17,517 bases of DNA from Comamonas sp. (GTDB lineage Bacteria > Pseudomonadota > Gammaproteobacteria > Burkholderiales > Burkholderiaceae_C), in NCBI GenBank assembly GCA_018384835.1, contig JAHAYB010000525.1, forward strand, positions 1 to 17,517, written 5' to 3'. A model generated the notes under the pieces. It was given only the letters and a program-made list of their open reading frames with translations, did no database searches and had not been told where the DNA came from. Below, one piece after another: positions 12,339-17,374 of this stretch. The position numbers and the translations under genes were made by a program. Positions within the stretch are counted from its first letter, which is position 1. Each line of letters begins with the position of its first letter.

Positions 12339-15302
12339 CTAGGTGCTGGGCGTAGCAGCCGCATCTGTCGTAGCACTGCCATTGGGCAGCTCGGCAGCGG
12401 CCTCTTCCAGCATACGGGCGTGGTAGCGGTGGGCGCGTACCGACTGGTGCGCCAAGGCCGTCAAAATCAGCAGGGTAGAGCCGACGACCAGGGCAAACAC
12501 GCCAATATCAAAGAAGGTGGCGCTGGCCAGGTGAATCTCGCCCACCCAGGGCAGCTTCCAATGGAAGCTGTGGCTGGTCAGGAAGGGATAGCCCGCCACC
12601 AGCGCCCCCAAGCCGGTGGCAATGGCAAACAGCAGCCCCGCACCAATCCAGCGGCGGGGGAAGAGGGGCATATGCGCCTCCACCCACTGCGTGCCTGAGA
12701 CGATGTATTGCAGCAGCAGCGCCACCGAGAACACCAGCCCCGCCACAAAGCCGCCGCCCGGCTCGTTATGGCCGCGCAAAAACATATACACCGCCACCAT
12801 GGTGGCAAAGGGCAGCAGCAGGCGCACCAGCACGGCAGGCACCATCAGATAGCCAATGGCCGTATCTTGCGCATTGCGTGGGTTGAACAGGTCGGTCTGT
12901 AAGTCACCGGCCAGAAAGCGCTGCTGCTCGGGCAAGTCCATGGTTTCACGCGCTGGGCGAAAGCGGCGCAGCAGGGCGTAGATGGTGAGCGCCACAATGC
13001 CCAGCACCACAATCTCGCCAAAGGTATCAAAGCCCCGGAAGTCCACCAGCATCACGTTAACGACGTTGCTGCCCCCGCCCCCGTCCAGCGCATGTTCTAG
13101 GAAGAAGGTGGCGCTGCTGTCCTCATAAGTGCGGCTCATCATGGCCAAGGCCAGCCAGGCCATGCCCAGGCCACTGGCCAGGGCAATCAAGGCATCGCGC
13201 ACCCGCCGACGCGCTGCGCTGCGCTGGGCATGGGCGGGGGGCATGTACTGGTCGCGCCGGGGCAGCCAGCGCAGCCCCAGCAAAATCAGGATGGTGGTGA
13301 CGATTTCCACCACCAACTGGGTTAGCGCCAAATCCGGCGCAGAGAACCACAAAAACGTCAGGCAAGTGACCAAGCCCGCACCACCCATCATGATGAGCGA
13401 GGCCATGCGGTGAAACTTCGCCTTCCATGCCGCGCCCAGGGCGCATAGCCCGCCCACCAGCCACAGCAGGGCAAAAGCCGGGGCGAATGGTGCGCGTTGG
13501 CCTTCGCCAATCCAGGGGCTTTGGTGCAACACAATGGGCAGCGCACCGGCCAGCAGGCTAATGAGCACCAGCCACAGCATTTGCCATTGCAGTTGCTGGG
13601 TGTTGAGCAAGCGGCGCAGATTGCGCCCAGCCAGGCTCAAACGTGCCAGCAGGTTTTCAAATATGCGCTTGCCGTCGACGCGGTGCAGCAGCGGCACTTG
13701 CTCTTGCAGCACTTCGCGATTGCGCAGCCAGCGCAGGGTGGCAAACAGGGCAATGCCGCCAAAAAGCGCAATCAAGCTCATGATGAAGGGCGCATTCAAG
13801 CCATGCCAAATCGCCAGACTAAAGCTGGGCAAGTTGCCGCCCACCACAGGCGTAGCCGCAGAGCGCAGCACATCGCCCACCGCCCAGGCGGGGAAGATGC
13901 CGACGATTAAGCACATCAGCACCAGCAGCTCTACGGGCACGCGCATCCAGTGCGGTGGTTCGTGCGGCTTGCGCGGTAAATCCGTGGCTTTGGGGCCAAA
14001 AAACACATCTGCCGTAAAGCGCAGCGAATAGGCCACGCTAAAAATCCCCGCCAAGGTGGCTACCAAGGGCAAGCTGATGCGTACCCAGGGCACGGCATCC
14101 AAAAACACCGCCTCGGCAAAAAACATTTCTTTAGAGAGGAAACCGTTAAGTAGCGGCACCCCGGCCATAGCCGCACTGGCCACGCAGGCCAAGGTGGCGG
14201 TCATCGGCATCATGTGTCTGAGGCCGGATAGGCGGGTGATGTCCCGCGTGCCGCTTTCGTGGTCCAGAATGCCCGCCGCCATAAACAGCGAGGCCTTGAA
14301 GGTGGCGTGGTTGATGATGTGAAACACCGCCGCCACCGCCGCCAAGCGGCTATTCAAGCCCAGCAGCAGGGTAATCAAGCCCAGGTGGGAGATGGTGGAA
14401 TAGGCCAGCAGCCCCTTGAGGTCGTTTTGAAACAGCGCCAAATAGCCGCCCAGCAGCAGCGTTAACGCCCCTGCGCCGCCTACCAGCCAGAACCATTCAT
14501 CCGTGCCACTGAGCACCGGCCACAGCCGTGCCATCAAAAATACACCCGCCTTAACCATGGTGGCCGAGTGCAGATAGGCCGACACCGGCGTAGGCGCGGC
14601 CATCGCGTGCGGCAGCCAGAAGTGGAAGGGGAATTGCGCACTTTTGGTCAAAGTACCCAGCAGCACCAGCACCAGCATGGGGGTATAGAGGTCATGGGCG
14701 CGTACCTGCGCCCCGGCGGCCAACACCACGTCCAAGTCGTAGCTGCCCACGATATGCCCCAGCACCAGCACCCCGGCAAATAGCAGCAGCCCGCCCGTGC
14801 CGGTAACGGTCAAGGCCATGCGTGCGCCGCGCCGCGCATCTTGGCGGTGGTGCCAGTAGCCAATCAGCAGAAAAGAAAACAGACTGGTCAGCTCCCAGAA
14901 GAACACCAGTTGAATCAGGTTGCCCGAAAGCACAACGCCAGCCATCGCCCCCATAAAAGCCAGCAAAAACGAGAAAAAGCGCGGAACCGGGTCAGCCGGC
15001 GACATGTAATAACGCGCATACAGCACCACCAGCGAGCCAATGCCCAGCACCAACAGGCTGAACATCCAGGCAAACCCGTCCATGCGCACCACAAAATTCA
15101 GCCCCAGGGCGGGCAGCCATTCAATTTCTTGGCGGATAACGCCGCCATTGGCAACTTCCGGGAACAGCAAAGCCGCCTGCACAGTGCAGACTAGGGCAAT
15201 GATGCCGGCCAGGGTAGATTCGGTATTGCGGGCGTTGGCGGGCAATACGGCAGCCAGTAAACTACCGACAAAAGGCAGAAGGATGAGGGTGATTAGCGGC
15301 AT
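12339..15302 (-). CDS. mrpA: Mrp-type cation/proton antiporter, fused subunits A and B
   Basis: The 987-residue inner-membrane protein joins MrpA and MrpB in one chain, the arrangement of group-2 Mrp systems such as PhaAB. The NuoL-like part shows Glu137 (FFWELTSLFSFLLIGYW), Lys220 (LGTLTKSAQFPFHFWLPHAM), Lys251 (HSATMVKAGVFLMARLW) and His306 (YSTISHLGL), the expected charged residues along the ion path. The MrpB part begins near residue 801 and is recognisable by FLRGHNEPGGGFVAGLVFS and ATFFDIGVFALVVGS. The polypeptide exchanges Na+ (or K+) for H+ together with subunits C to G, which follow in the order C, D, E, F, G. It is the first gene of the operon. No good Shine-Dalgarno sequence precedes the ATG at 15300-15302 and I could not locate its promoter. 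Confidence 0.95.
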   Translation of the reverse strand: MPLITLILLPFVGSLLAAVLPANARNTESTLAGIIALVCTVQAALLFPEVANGGVIRQEIEWLPALGLNFVVRMDGFAWMFSLLVLGIGSLVVLYARYYMSPADPVPRFFSFLLAFMGAMAGVVLSGNLIQLVFFWELTSLFSFLLIGYWHHRQDARRGARMALTVTGTGGLLLFAGVLVLGHIVGSYDLDVVLAAGAQVRAHDLYTPMLVLVLLGTLTKSAQFPFHFWLPHAMAAPTPVSAYLHSATMVKAGVFLMARLWPVLSGTDEWFWLVGGAGALTLLLGGYLALFQNDLKGLLAYSTISHLGLITLLLGLNSRLAAVAAVFHIINHATFKASLFMAAGILDHESGTRDITRLSGLRHMMPMTATLACVASAAMAGVPLLNGFLSKEMFFAEAVFLDAVPWVRISLPLVATLAGIFSVAYSLRFTADVFFGPKATDLPRKPHEPPHWMRVPVELLVLMCLIVGIFPAWAVGDVLRSAATPVVGGNLPSFSLAIWHGLNAPFIMSLIALFGGIALFATLRWLRNREVLQEQVPLLHRVDGKRIFENLLARLSLAGRNLRRLLNTQQLQWQMLWLVLISLLAGALPIVLHQSPWIGEGQRAPFAPAFALLWLVGGLCALGAAWKAKFHRMASLIMMGGAGLVTCLTFLWFSAPDLALTQLVVEIVTTILILLGLRWLPRRDQYMPPAHAQRSAARRRVRDALIALASGLGMAWLALAMMSRTYEDSSATFFLEHALDGGGGSNVVNVMLVDFRGFDTFGEIVVLGIVALTIYALLRRFRPARETMDLPEQQRFLAGDLQTDLFNPRNAQDTAIGYLMVPAVLVRLLLPFATMVAVYMFLRGHNEPGGGFVAGLVFSVALLLQYIVSGTQWVEAHMPLFPRRWIGAGLLFAIATGLGALVAGYPFLTSHSFHWKLPWVGEIHLASATFFDIGVFALVVGSTLLILTALAHQSVRAHRYHARMLEEAAAELPNGSATTDAAATPST

Positions 15303-15485
15303 GAAGGCGCAAAAAAGAGGAGGGAGTCATCGCCCGCAGCACAACGCAGTCGGGGGCTGAAGTTTAGGGCAAGAGGCAAGTCCAAGCGGCTGGCCTGCGC
15401 AAAAATCCCGGCAAATGCGCTCAACTCACCCCTATTTGAGGCGCTGCAAACACGCCGTACTACGCGACGAATACGCTCGCTTTGC

Positions 15486-15514
15486 TTGCGAGAGGAGCTG
15501 CAAGATGCTATATT
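15486..15514 (+). promoter_or_regulatory. Promoter-like element overlapping the leader peptide start
   Basis: TTGCGA (15486-15491, 4 of 6 to the -35 consensus), a 17-nt spacer and TATATT (15509-15514, 5 of 6 to the -10 consensus). If used, transcription would start near 15521, just before the second in-frame ATG (15523). The leader ORF would then be translated from a nearly leaderless start. It conflicts with use of the Shine-Dalgarno sequence at 15493-15497, so one of the two is probably chance. No better promoter was found in 15303-15485. Confidence 0.25.
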
Positions 15515-15579
15515 TACCGGCTATGCAAGTGTTCAGCGCCTTCTATTTTTACTTTTGGTTCTCTGTCCAAGGCGGATGA
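15505..15579 (+). CDS. Aromatic-rich leader peptide of the DAHP synthase attenuator
   Basis: This 24-codon ORF is too short for usual gene callers. AGGAG (15493-15497) lies 7 nt before the ATG at 15505; a second in-frame ATG is at 15523. The peptide has nine aromatic residues, seven of them consecutive at positions 13-19: Phe-Tyr-Phe-Tyr-Phe-Trp-Phe (15541-15561). It ends SVQGG and TGA at 15577-15579. Short ORFs loaded with codons for the pathway's end products are the sensors of ribosome-mediated attenuators, as in the trp and phe operons. Here the run contains Phe, Tyr and Trp codons, matching the three end products downstream of DAHP synthase. The terminator begins 39 nt after the stop codon. 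The peptide itself should have no function beyond being translated. Confidence 0.82.
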   Translation: MLYLPAMQVFSAFYFYFWFSVQGG

Positions 15580-15628
15580 GAGGCTAGCGCTCGCACACCC
15601 ACGAACACCAAGCTCCCCAAAAACCGCC
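15553..15628 (+). promoter_or_regulatory. Alternative pairing arms of the DAHP synthase attenuator
   Basis: Arm 1, UUUUGG (15553-15558, the Phe17-Trp18 codons), can pair with CCAAGG (15567-15572), two pairs being G-U. Arm 2, GGCGG (15571-15575), is complementary to CCGCC (15624-15628), which is the 5' arm of the terminator; GAG (15580-15582) with CTC (15613-15615) could extend it. A ribosome stalled in the aromatic codons would cover arm 1, free arm 2 and favour antitermination; a ribosome that moves on would let the terminator form. The antiterminator seen by eye is weak (5 GC pairs plus extension), so the exact fold is uncertain. Confidence 0.5.
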
Positions 15629-15660
15629 GCAGCTGCACAGCCCGGCGGTTTTTTGTTTTT
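15619..15660 (+). terminator. Attenuator terminator in the DAHP synthase leader
   Basis: AAAAACCGCCG (15619-15629) and CGGCGGTTTTT (15643-15653) form an 11-bp stem with a 13-nt loop, followed by TTTTTTGTTTTT running to 15660. It lies 52 nt before the DAHP synthase ATG on the same strand. The only plus-strand ORF of note between the divergent antiporter operon and this hairpin is the leader peptide, so the terminator does not serve an upstream gene. It is best read as an attenuator. The A-rich 5' arm could also allow leftward termination, but no leftward transcript is expected here. Confidence 0.85.
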
Positions 15661-15711
15661 CCACCTTTCTTCCCTTTACTTTTCACCCCATTTTTTCTAA
15701 AGAGGTTTGCC

Positions 15712-16890
15712 ATGAATGCTCCACAACATCCTGACACCAGCCCCAGCACCGATGCCTGGTATCGCAGCTCTGCCCCCAAAACTGGCCAGACTGACGACGA
15801 ACGCATCAAGGACATCACCGTGCTACCCCCACCCGAGCATTTAATCCGCTTCTTCCCCATCCAAAATACCGCTGCTGAAAAGCTGGTGAGCGATACCCGC
15901 AAAAACATCCAGCGCATCATGCGCAACCAGGACGACCGTCTGCTGGTGGTTGTGGGGCCTTGCTCTATCCACGACCCACAAGCCGCGTTGGACTACGCCC
16001 GCCGCCTGTCTGATGTGCGTGAGCAATACCAGGACACGCTGGAAATCGTCATGCGCGTCTATTTTGAAAAACCGCGCACCACCGTTGGCTGGAAGGGCTT
16101 GATTAACGACCCCTACCTGGATGGCAGCTACCGCATTGACGAAGGCCTGCGCATGGCGCGTCAGCTGCTGATTGACATCAACCGCCTGGGCGTGCCTGCG
16201 GGCAGCGAGTTTTTGGACGTAATCTCGCCGCAATACATTGGCGATTTGATTAGCTGGGGCGCGATTGGTGCGCGTACCACCGAAAGCCAGGTGCACCGTG
16301 AGTTGGCCTCCGGCATCTCTGCGCCCATTGGCTTTAAGAACGGCACGGACGGCAATATCCGCATTGCCACCGACGCGATTGCCTCGGCCAGCCGTGGGCA
16401 CCACTTCCTGTCGGTACACAAAAATGGCCAGGTGGCGATTGTGCATACCGCTGGTAATCAGGACTGCCACGTCATCCTGCGCGGCGGCAAAGCGCCCAAC
16501 TACGATGCCGCGCATGTCGCCGCCGCCTGTGTGGATTTGGAAAAAGCCGGTCTGCCCGCCACCTTGATGGTCGATTGCAGCCACGCCAACAGCCATAAAC
16601 AGCACGAGCGCCAAAAGGATGTGGCTGCCGACATTGCTGCGCAGCTGGCCGCCGGTTCGCAGCAAGTATTTGGTGTGATGCTGGAAAGCCACTTGGTCGC
16701 GGGCGCACAAAAATTCAGCGCCGGGCAAGACGATGTGTGCAAGCTGGCCTACGGCCAAAGCATTACCGATGCCTGCATCGGCTGGCAAGACACGGTAGAA
16801 GTGATTGAAACCCTGGCTCAAGCCGTAGAGCAGCGCCGCGCCAAGCTGGGGCAGGGGGCGGCTCAACAGCCAGAGGCGGCTTTGGCTTAA
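15712..16890 (+). CDS. aroG: Class I 3-deoxy-7-phosphoheptulonate (DAHP) synthase
   Basis: The 392-residue cytoplasmic enzyme condenses phosphoenolpyruvate with erythrose 4-phosphate, the first step of the shikimate pathway. Family motifs are all present: GPCSIHD (82-88), MRVYFEKPRTTVGWKGLINDP (114-134), GARTTESQVHRELASG (186-201), GFKNGTDG (207-214), GGKAPNYD (258-265), DCSHANSHKQ (288-297) and YGQSITDACIGW (347-358). By alignment with E. coli AroG, metal ligands are Cys84, His291, Glu325 and Asp353, and substrate-binding residues include Lys120, Arg188, Lys209 and Arg257. It is about 40 residues longer than AroG, mainly at both ends. Feedback specificity (Phe, Tyr or Trp) cannot be read from sequence, so the symbol is by family only. 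AGAGG precedes the ATG. The leader peptide and hairpin upstream suggest attenuation control. Confidence 0.95.
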   Translation: MNAPQHPDTSPSTDAWYRSSAPKTGQTDDERIKDITVLPPPEHLIRFFPIQNTAAEKLVSDTRKNIQRIMRNQDDRLLVVVGPCSIHDPQAALDYARRLSDVREQYQDTLEIVMRVYFEKPRTTVGWKGLINDPYLDGSYRIDEGLRMARQLLIDINRLGVPAGSEFLDVISPQYIGDLISWGAIGARTTESQVHRELASGISAPIGFKNGTDGNIRIATDAIASASRGHHFLSVHKNGQVAIVHTAGNQDCHVILRGGKAPNYDAAHVAAACVDLEKAGLPATLMVDCSHANSHKQHERQKDVAADIAAQLAAGSQQVFGVMLESHLVAGAQKFSAGQDDVCKLAYGQSITDACIGWQDTVEVIETLAQAVEQRRAKLGQGAAQQPEAALA

Positions 16891-16958: not shown

Positions 16959-17062
16959 GTTGTCCCTATGCCACCTGAGTGACAATCGAGCAGATTTTTT
17001 GCCTAGCACTGGGGTAAGCTGGTTGCTGTTACTTTCCCATTTATTTGCCAAAGAGGAATGCC

Positions 17063-17374
17063 ATGGTCAGTGAACTGATAGTGCGTTTGCACCCTACGCA
17101 AGAATACCGCGTGGACTTGTCCCGCCTAGACCCCATGGGCAATGAAGAAGCCCGCCGCTGGCTGGATGACCAGTTCATCGCCCTGGAATGCGAGCCGCTA
17201 CGCGCCAGCGGCAAAGTGCTGCTGGCCGATAAAGTGCTGGTAGTGGCCGAGGCAGCGGGCGAGCGTCTGCTCAGTGACGAAGCCTGGCTACAAGCCTATG
17301 GCCGCGCCGCCCAGGCCGTGCTGAGCAAGCCCGTAATTACCGTTGACGTGGCGGCTATGGCGGTGACGTACTAA
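17063..17374 (+). CDS. Conserved-looking small protein of unknown function
   Basis: The 103-residue product is not recognised. AAGAGG (17051-17056) lies 6 nt before the ATG at 17063, so the upstream TTG at 17045 is rejected as start. The protein is soluble, without signal peptide or membrane helix, and mildly acidic. It starts with a beta-like stretch, SELIVRLHPTQEYRVDL, has a helical EEARRWLDDQFIAL segment (28-41), then KVLLADKVLVVAEAAGERLLSDEAWLQAYGRAAQAVL, and ends in a hydrophobic, strand-like PVITVDVAAMAVTY. Codon use resembles its neighbours. Terminators on both sides make it its own transcription unit, supporting a real gene. No cysteine cluster, nucleotide-binding or DNA-binding motif is visible apart from a single Cys at about 43. 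Confidence 0.8.
   Translation: MVSELIVRLHPTQEYRVDLSRLDPMGNEEARRWLDDQFIALECEPLRASGKVLLADKVLVVAEAAGERLLSDEAWLQAYGRAAQAVLSKPVITVDVAAMAVTY

Follow-up and report, generated by a model that had tools for sequence, protein, structure and literature searches.

The gene for a class I DAHP synthase (aroG) in a Comamonas draft genome is preceded by a short leader that very probably acts as a ribosome-mediated transcription attenuator. This reading draws on the anatomy of the leader, its conservation, base covariation beside the core of the antiterminator and the register between codon run and antiterminator, all taken from sequence; from these we infer the start of the leader transcript, the stalling of ribosomes and the response to three amino acids. 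The window, that is the whole stretch of 17,517 nucleotides that was analysed, corresponds to contig C252 in a draft genome of 2.8 Mb. The features relevant to the leader are the following.

15486..15514, plus strand: predicted promoter, with a −35-like TTGCGA (15486-15491) and a conserved extended −10, TG-C-TATATT (15506-15514)
15523..15579, plus strand: leader peptide ORF MQVFSAFYFYFWFSVQGG, 18 codons and a TGA stop
15541..15561, plus strand: putative sensor run F-Y-F-Y-F-W-F, seven aromatic codons, identified from the sequence and from the enrichment of synonymous changes in the core codons
15571..15583, plus strand: region 2, the predicted antiterminator strand, with GGCGG (15571-15575) and GAGAGG (15578-15583), conserved in the alignment and covarying with region 3
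15619..15629, plus strand: region 3, the 5′ arm of the terminator, AAAAACCGCCG, which can also pair with region 2
15643..15660, plus strand: region 4, the 3′ arm of the terminator (CGGCGGTTTTT) and the U-rich run
15712..16890, plus strand: aroG, class I DAHP synthase (PF00793, E 5.3e-93; TIGR00034, 534 bits, over the cut-off), the putative regulated gene

The first four named relatives in the search are Comamonas records with 88-92% identity. A gene for subunit A of a monovalent cation/proton antiporter (NF009288, over the cut-off) occupies 12339-15302 on the minus strand, divergent from the leader, and the intergenic stretch is common to both. Behind aroG lies an ORF of 109 amino acids (17045-17374, plus strand) without a Pfam or NCBIfam match at E 0.001; a tandem-repeat search found no repeats. 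The host genome holds a second class I DAHP synthase (G000:C79:1417-2478, locus L157) with 59% identity to the first. Inspection by eye of three frames in the 450 nt upstream of this second gene revealed no aromatic run and, thus, the two isozymes are probably under different control.

The leader was compared over a named set of 81 loci, composed of the window and the best 80 of 556 named relatives (in L056 and L065 the start of aroG was assigned manually). In 81/81 of these loci the gene is preceded by a homologous short ORF whose core is aromatic, frequently YFWFS. At least six aromatic residues fall within a nine-residue stretch of the ORF in 77/81 loci, a score reached by 0/243 shuffled sequences and 3/81 reverse complements. 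In the window the codons at 15541-15561 read TTC TAT TTT TAC TTT TGG TTC, just as the preliminary description of this DNA had reported seven consecutive aromatic codons. Among the 30 unique core sequences, single-step neighbours were synonymous in 10/20 pairs against 0.125 expected (the pairs are not independent). The aromatic fraction in the three frames of 145 leaders was 0.31, 0.13 and 0.10, high in the frame of the ORF only. Together, the synonymous excess and the frame-specific aromatic content suggest that the run is constrained as a peptide.

A constraint of this kind also fits an arrest peptide, which would itself halt the ribosome in response to free aromatic amino acids, independently of tRNA charging. 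The peptides differ widely across families, however (FFFFFYF, YFWYYF, FYFFSFYF), and it is mainly the aromatic content that is kept. Since they vary but stay aromatic, the run would be a sensor made of codons as opposed to a peptide with fixed arrest residues, and we consider the latter very improbable. We give just as little credit to the idea that nothing more than a U-rich 5′ UTR with a constitutive terminator lies here, or that regulation falls to a protein such as TyrR and the ORF is incidental. The E. coli DAHP synthase genes are indeed repressed by regulators that bind aromatic amino acids (PMC11802643), but aromatic content specific to one frame, an antiterminator that covaries (see below) and the scarcity of aromatic runs before DAHP synthase genes that lack the element all argue against an incidental ORF.

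Behind the run the selective constraint appears to change in kind. The end of the peptide varies (SVPGG*, SPPAAER*, SSPAEER*) and small differences in length shift the frame between groups of loci. Despite these shifts, GGCGGnnGAGAG persists in nearly all loci, with GACGG in five and GGTGG in one; in the window, the motif GGCGGATGAGAGG overlaps the leader stop codon. Because GGCGG..GAGAG stays while frame and residues change (VPGG* or PPAAER*), region 2 is presumably constrained as RNA.

The preliminary description had placed the start of the leader at 15505, making it an ORF of 24 codons with a Shine-Dalgarno sequence. This start had to be given up: an in-frame ATG at the equivalent place is found in 1/81 loci, namely the window itself, and it overlaps the predicted −10 region. 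The leader start read from the aligned sequences is ATG 15523, which leaves 18 codons. It is quite improbable that the same attenuator is translated from ATG 15505 with its transcript starting further upstream. GAGAGGAG does precede ATG 15505 in the window, yet it would lie upstream of the predicted transcription start. In-frame ATGs occur in the 45 nt ahead of the conserved start in 14/81 loci, but in only 4/81 does an in-frame start in that interval have a Shine-Dalgarno match of at least five.

A consensus promoter scan of the window is no evidence when taken alone, since it found 1 promoter against 1.0 expected in shuffled sequences. In 81/81 loci of the named set, an extended −10 motif (TGnTANNNT) lies upstream of the leader ATG with its end 6-8 nt away, and its hexamer has the form TACATT in 71/81; shuffled upstream stretches gave the motif in 2.1/81 loci on average and in 7 at most. 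The −35 is weak, with 4 of 6 matches in 11/81 loci and fewer in the others. Shine-Dalgarno matches of at least five precede 0/81 leader ATGs as compared to 36/81 aroG ATGs, and matches of at least four precede 20/81 and 57/81, respectively. With an extended −10 this close to the ATG and no strong Shine-Dalgarno sequence, the leader transcript probably begins at its ATG or immediately beside it and would thus be leaderless. In a second collection, the order set of 69 loci described below, the promoter feature is less clear because the extended −10 is found in only 26/69 loci (1.5 in shuffles); there, Shine-Dalgarno matches of at least five precede 0/69 leader starts and 16/69 gene starts. Separately, Limnohabitans-type loci (e.g., L036, L044, L052) were seen to carry repeated TGTCA/GTCA-type motifs, such as CTGTCAGAAACTGTCAT, just upstream of the leader promoter; these may represent a variant −35 or the site of a regulator.

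Downstream of the ORF, 15619-15629 pairs with 15643-15653 in an 11-bp stem. The U-rich run behind it extends to about 15660, leaving 52 nt up to the ATG of the DAHP synthase at 15712. This hairpin was already part of the preliminary description and is borne out here, a terminator with a U-run being found in 81/81 loci of the named set. Regions 2:3 and 3:4 are mutually exclusive pairings, region 3 (CCGCC) being common to both. In 50 aligned sequences, 97.1% of the 3:4 cells and 79.9% of the 2:3 cells are paired. The 50 sequences contain no two-sided changes in the terminator stem. At columns 90/156, a G-C pair of the 2:3 helix is replaced by A-U in 5/50 sequences, where 3:4 keeps only U-G; the replacement may represent a single evolutionary event. 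In total, 2:3 has 10 cells with two-sided changes as compared to 5.3 in shuffled alignments (8/500 as high). A control in which the 2:3 partner was slid by +1 column gave 11 two-sided cells, but with only 41.5% of cells paired.

Covariation was also found in the base pair beside the core, over the named and order sets combined. A C in region 2 goes with a G in region 3 in 44 cases against 2; for a T in region 2 the partner is A in 12 cases and G in 11, either of which can pair with it. The association of C-G versus T-A has a Fisher p of 9e-6 (69/93 unique rows, relatedness ignored), and the base is unpaired in 27/109 rows. From the 141 rows of this test, 17 were dropped for want of the 3/4 pattern and 15 for want of region 2; the latter group includes at least the Polaromonas loci (L023, L043 and others) that fell to a limit of the script, which did not handle aromatic residues behind region 2, and in which GGCGG is visible. 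The next two positions showed no association (p 1.0 and 0.125).

Shuffling one locus at a time had little power. The GGCGG:CCGCC pairing alone is not significant in the window (p 0.32), while 41/81 and 32/47 loci reach p 0.05; for a second helix, formed by the purine tail of region 2 and the pyrimidines before region 3, 7/81 and 0/40 loci do so. The fold of the window leader taken by itself is unexceptional (z −0.97) and uninformative. In view of the little power of the locus-by-locus shuffling, permutations were added in which partners were swapped between loci (85 unique rows, relatedness ignored). A locus's own flank paired better than swapped flanks in 2000/2000 permutations and its own second helix in 1997/2000. 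Taken set by set, the second helix was not significant in the named set (567/2000) and weak in the order set (70/2000). The register is also kept: region 2 starts 9 nt beyond the final aromatic codon in the window, and 8-12 nt past the last preceding aromatic codon in 73/81 named and 30/40 order loci.

We propose that the element works as follows. Transcription would start on the leader ATG, or one or two bases from it, and yield a leaderless leader mRNA that a ribosome would enter immediately and translate as far as the aromatic run. A shortage of charged tRNA for Phe, Tyr or, in the host's family, Trp would stall the ribosome in the run and leave region 2 (GGCGG..GAGAGG) free to pair with the CCGCC of region 3, perhaps together with the pyrimidines preceding it. 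The 2:3 pairing would block the 3:4 terminator and aroG would be transcribed. If all three aromatic amino acids were plentiful, the ribosome would reach the codons over region 2, the 3:4 stem would form and transcription would stop about 52 nt before aroG.

Leaders were folded under a mask for a ribosome assumed to cover 15 nt upstream and 12 nt downstream, counted from the start of the A-site codon. For the window, the calculation predicts readthrough for a ribosome within the run and termination after the ribosome has passed it. With codons 7-13 in the A site, the calculated P(2:3) is 0.35-0.96, including 0.95 for the Trp codon and 0.96 for the final Phe codon; it drops to 0.00 at codon 14 and stays there up to the stop. 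P(2:3) is likewise 0.68-0.89 for a ribosome stalled on the non-aromatic codons 1-6, and 0.62 for the RNA without ribosome. The median P(2:3) across the 81 named loci reaches 0.98 when the ribosome stalls on the last five aromatic codons, falls to 0.58 in the free RNA and is 0.00 with the ribosome at the stop. Since the antiterminator already forms to this extent in the naked RNA, the model does not predict the classical termination in the absence of translation, and the test is one-sided. A ribosome at the stop codon is calculated to mask region 2 (P at most 0.2) in 45/81 loci, including the window. In the other 36/81, with longer ORFs (e.g., L028, L036, L043, L080), the model leaves the antiterminator formed; there, the ORF runs past the antiterminator strand and a ribosome parked at the stop leaves region 2 unmasked, so that the off state of these loci needs another account.

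How many amino acids the run would report was approached through its composition. Codons for all three aromatics are present in 77/81 leaders of the named set, Trp being absent in 4/81, with means of 4.3 Phe, 1.8 Tyr and 1.0 Trp codons per leader. In the order set, 32/64 scored leaders contain all three and 31/64 contain no Trp; outside the host's family, all three occur in 24/56, Phe and Tyr only in 27/56 and Phe only in 4. (The order count covers 64/69 loci; L100, L124, L147, L149 and L152 were excluded as the script had picked ORFs of more than 32 residues.) The preliminary description had envisaged sensing of all three aromatics. Within the host's family the kept Trp codon makes this a founded prediction, but the count outside the family does not allow it to be generalised.

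A genuine attenuator could still sense effectively Phe alone, perhaps with Tyr, the single Trp codon carrying little weight. The bias of the codon means toward Phe and the frequent absence of Trp in the order are in line with such a sensor, as is the C. glutamicum aroR leader, whose F-Y-F motif is reported to answer to Phe and not to Tyr (PMC11802643). On the other hand, Trp is kept in the same place in 25/30 unique cores, and the P(2:3) calculated for the Trp codon in the window is next to the highest. On this balance we find the Phe-weighted version rather unlikely, though it is the main rival reading. We are about evenly divided between belief and doubt as regards the full form of our proposal, in which a leaderless attenuator would read the charging of three aromatic tRNAs at the entry to the shikimate pathway, shortage of any one opening the pathway; the design would be kept in nearly the whole family and would appear with runs for Phe and Tyr only in other families of the order, and the terminated RNA would be a mini-mRNA that continues to make an aromatic peptide.

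A covariance model was used to survey the distribution of the element; it has 150 positions and derives from 50/81 loci of the named set, without the coding part of the DAHP synthase gene. The model matches 194/200 genomes of the host's family and 137/141 genera. The six family genomes without a match are drafts, 55-90% complete. Two of them have no DAHP synthase match at E 1e-40, while in G341 the gene is cut by a contig end (58%) and in G371 only residues 243-379 are present. G458 has a 56% copy, and G387 has copies at 62% and 48%; no aromatic leader was found before the 56% and 48% copies, and only about 76 nt of sequence are present upstream of the 62% copy. Elsewhere in the host genome, matches to the model are weak (E 0.04-4.6) and partial, with no DAHP synthase beside them (L083-L086). 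Two records bearing the names of distant genera, L025 (titled Pantoea) and L076 (titled Akkermansia), are probably mislabelled or contaminated, as their DAHP synthases are 79% identical to that of the window and preceded by a leader of the family type.

In the host's order, 80/300 genomes have a match. Of the 84 matches listed, the window and 69 others were examined, these 69 forming the order set; 3 weak full-length matches (G019, G201, G299) and 11 partial ones were left out. All 69 adjoin a DAHP synthase gene on the same strand, and eight come from the host's family. Relative to the extrapolated first residue of the enzyme, the ends of the matches range from 60 nt inside to 71 nt upstream, negative distances reflecting differences in N-terminal length. 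Inside the match, 66/69 loci have at least five aromatics in nine residues. When the whole upstream region was scanned with a length limit, at least five aromatics were found in 62/69 loci, as compared to 2/69 reverse complements and 0/207 shuffled sequences. Together with the conserved run, the covarying antiterminator and the register, the 69/69 adjacency lends support to the attenuation of DAHP synthase put forward in the preliminary description.

Among the DAHP synthase upstream regions listed without a model match, 60 were scanned: 57 from genomes without any match and, from genomes that the model matches at another place, 3 (G158 C15, G240 C34, G265 C166). Five aromatics were reached in only 5/60, with 0/60 reverse complements and 2/180 shuffled sequences as controls. 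Thus, the element is not a general property of DAHP synthase genes. At the level of the class, 12/229 genomes match, 3 of them in the host's family and most of the others with terminator-sized matches. The two best matches outside the host's family were inspected among these 12 genomes, L218 and L224 (G655 and G503), which belong to one family of the same class outside the order. Both are full-length matches before DAHP synthases with 59-62% identity, and their peptides contain SFYFWYYFPKPLAEEG and RFYRWYYFPKPPAEEG, one having a GTG start. These matches indicate that the leader element is older or has moved. No known Rfam family (release 15) matches the window at its gathering score, and a new family could therefore be added; the best weak match in 15300-15800 was RNAI, with 15.5 bits, E 2.4 and a gathering score of 47.

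The proposal offers a concrete and testable account of how carbon flow into the aromatic amino acids may be controlled in many Burkholderiales. In E. coli, control of the first shared step is split over repressors and isozymes. If the proposal is true, one codon run at that step would sense three end products in an OR-type manner and, if the leader is leaderless, translation would be coupled to transcription from the first nucleotide. The F/Y/W and F/Y runs of the different families would then constitute a natural experiment in the choice of inputs.

Leaders in which one peptide contains codons for several end products of a branched pathway are known from the ilvGMEDA and thr operons of E. coli. 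The window resembles them in combining such codons in one leader; theirs are branched-chain or Thr/Ile codons, and the leader has a ribosome binding site. The aroR leader of C. glutamicum is reportedly leaderless, as Neshat is said to have described in 2014. It shares with the window an aromatic-codon leader peptide before a DAHP synthase gene, but belongs to another phylum and has no Trp codon in its motif. For aroR (F-Y-F, before aroF), two papers report an attenuator transcript (PMC4046766, PMC11802643), the latter including the Phe effect and the lack of a Tyr effect mentioned above. In Sinorhizobium meliloti, the trpL RNA begins with the leader ATG, contains Trp codons and undergoes transcription termination (PMC7298713); as opposed to the element described here, it senses Trp only and controls trpE(G). 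The uORFC-13-1 motif, which precedes aroF in Acholeplasma, combines a terminator with a predicted uORF containing one or more Phe codons (PMC8632094). It differs in having a predicted RBS and in its 24 representatives, which come from Acholeplasma and environmental sequences only.

A literature search, with older subscription papers largely outside its scope, found no description of a DAHP synthase leader in beta-proteobacteria, and the accessible parts of PMC2965389, PMC12125101 and PMC5760752 contain nothing on such an element. The E. coli pheL (pheA) and trpL (trp) leaders are alike in that the stalling of a ribosome in an aromatic run picks antiterminator or terminator, but they respond to a single amino acid and control genes of the terminal branches and not the first shared step (PMC11802643). 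The mechanism class is that of textbook attenuation; what appears to be new is the Burkholderiales family of leaders and its three-amino-acid version.
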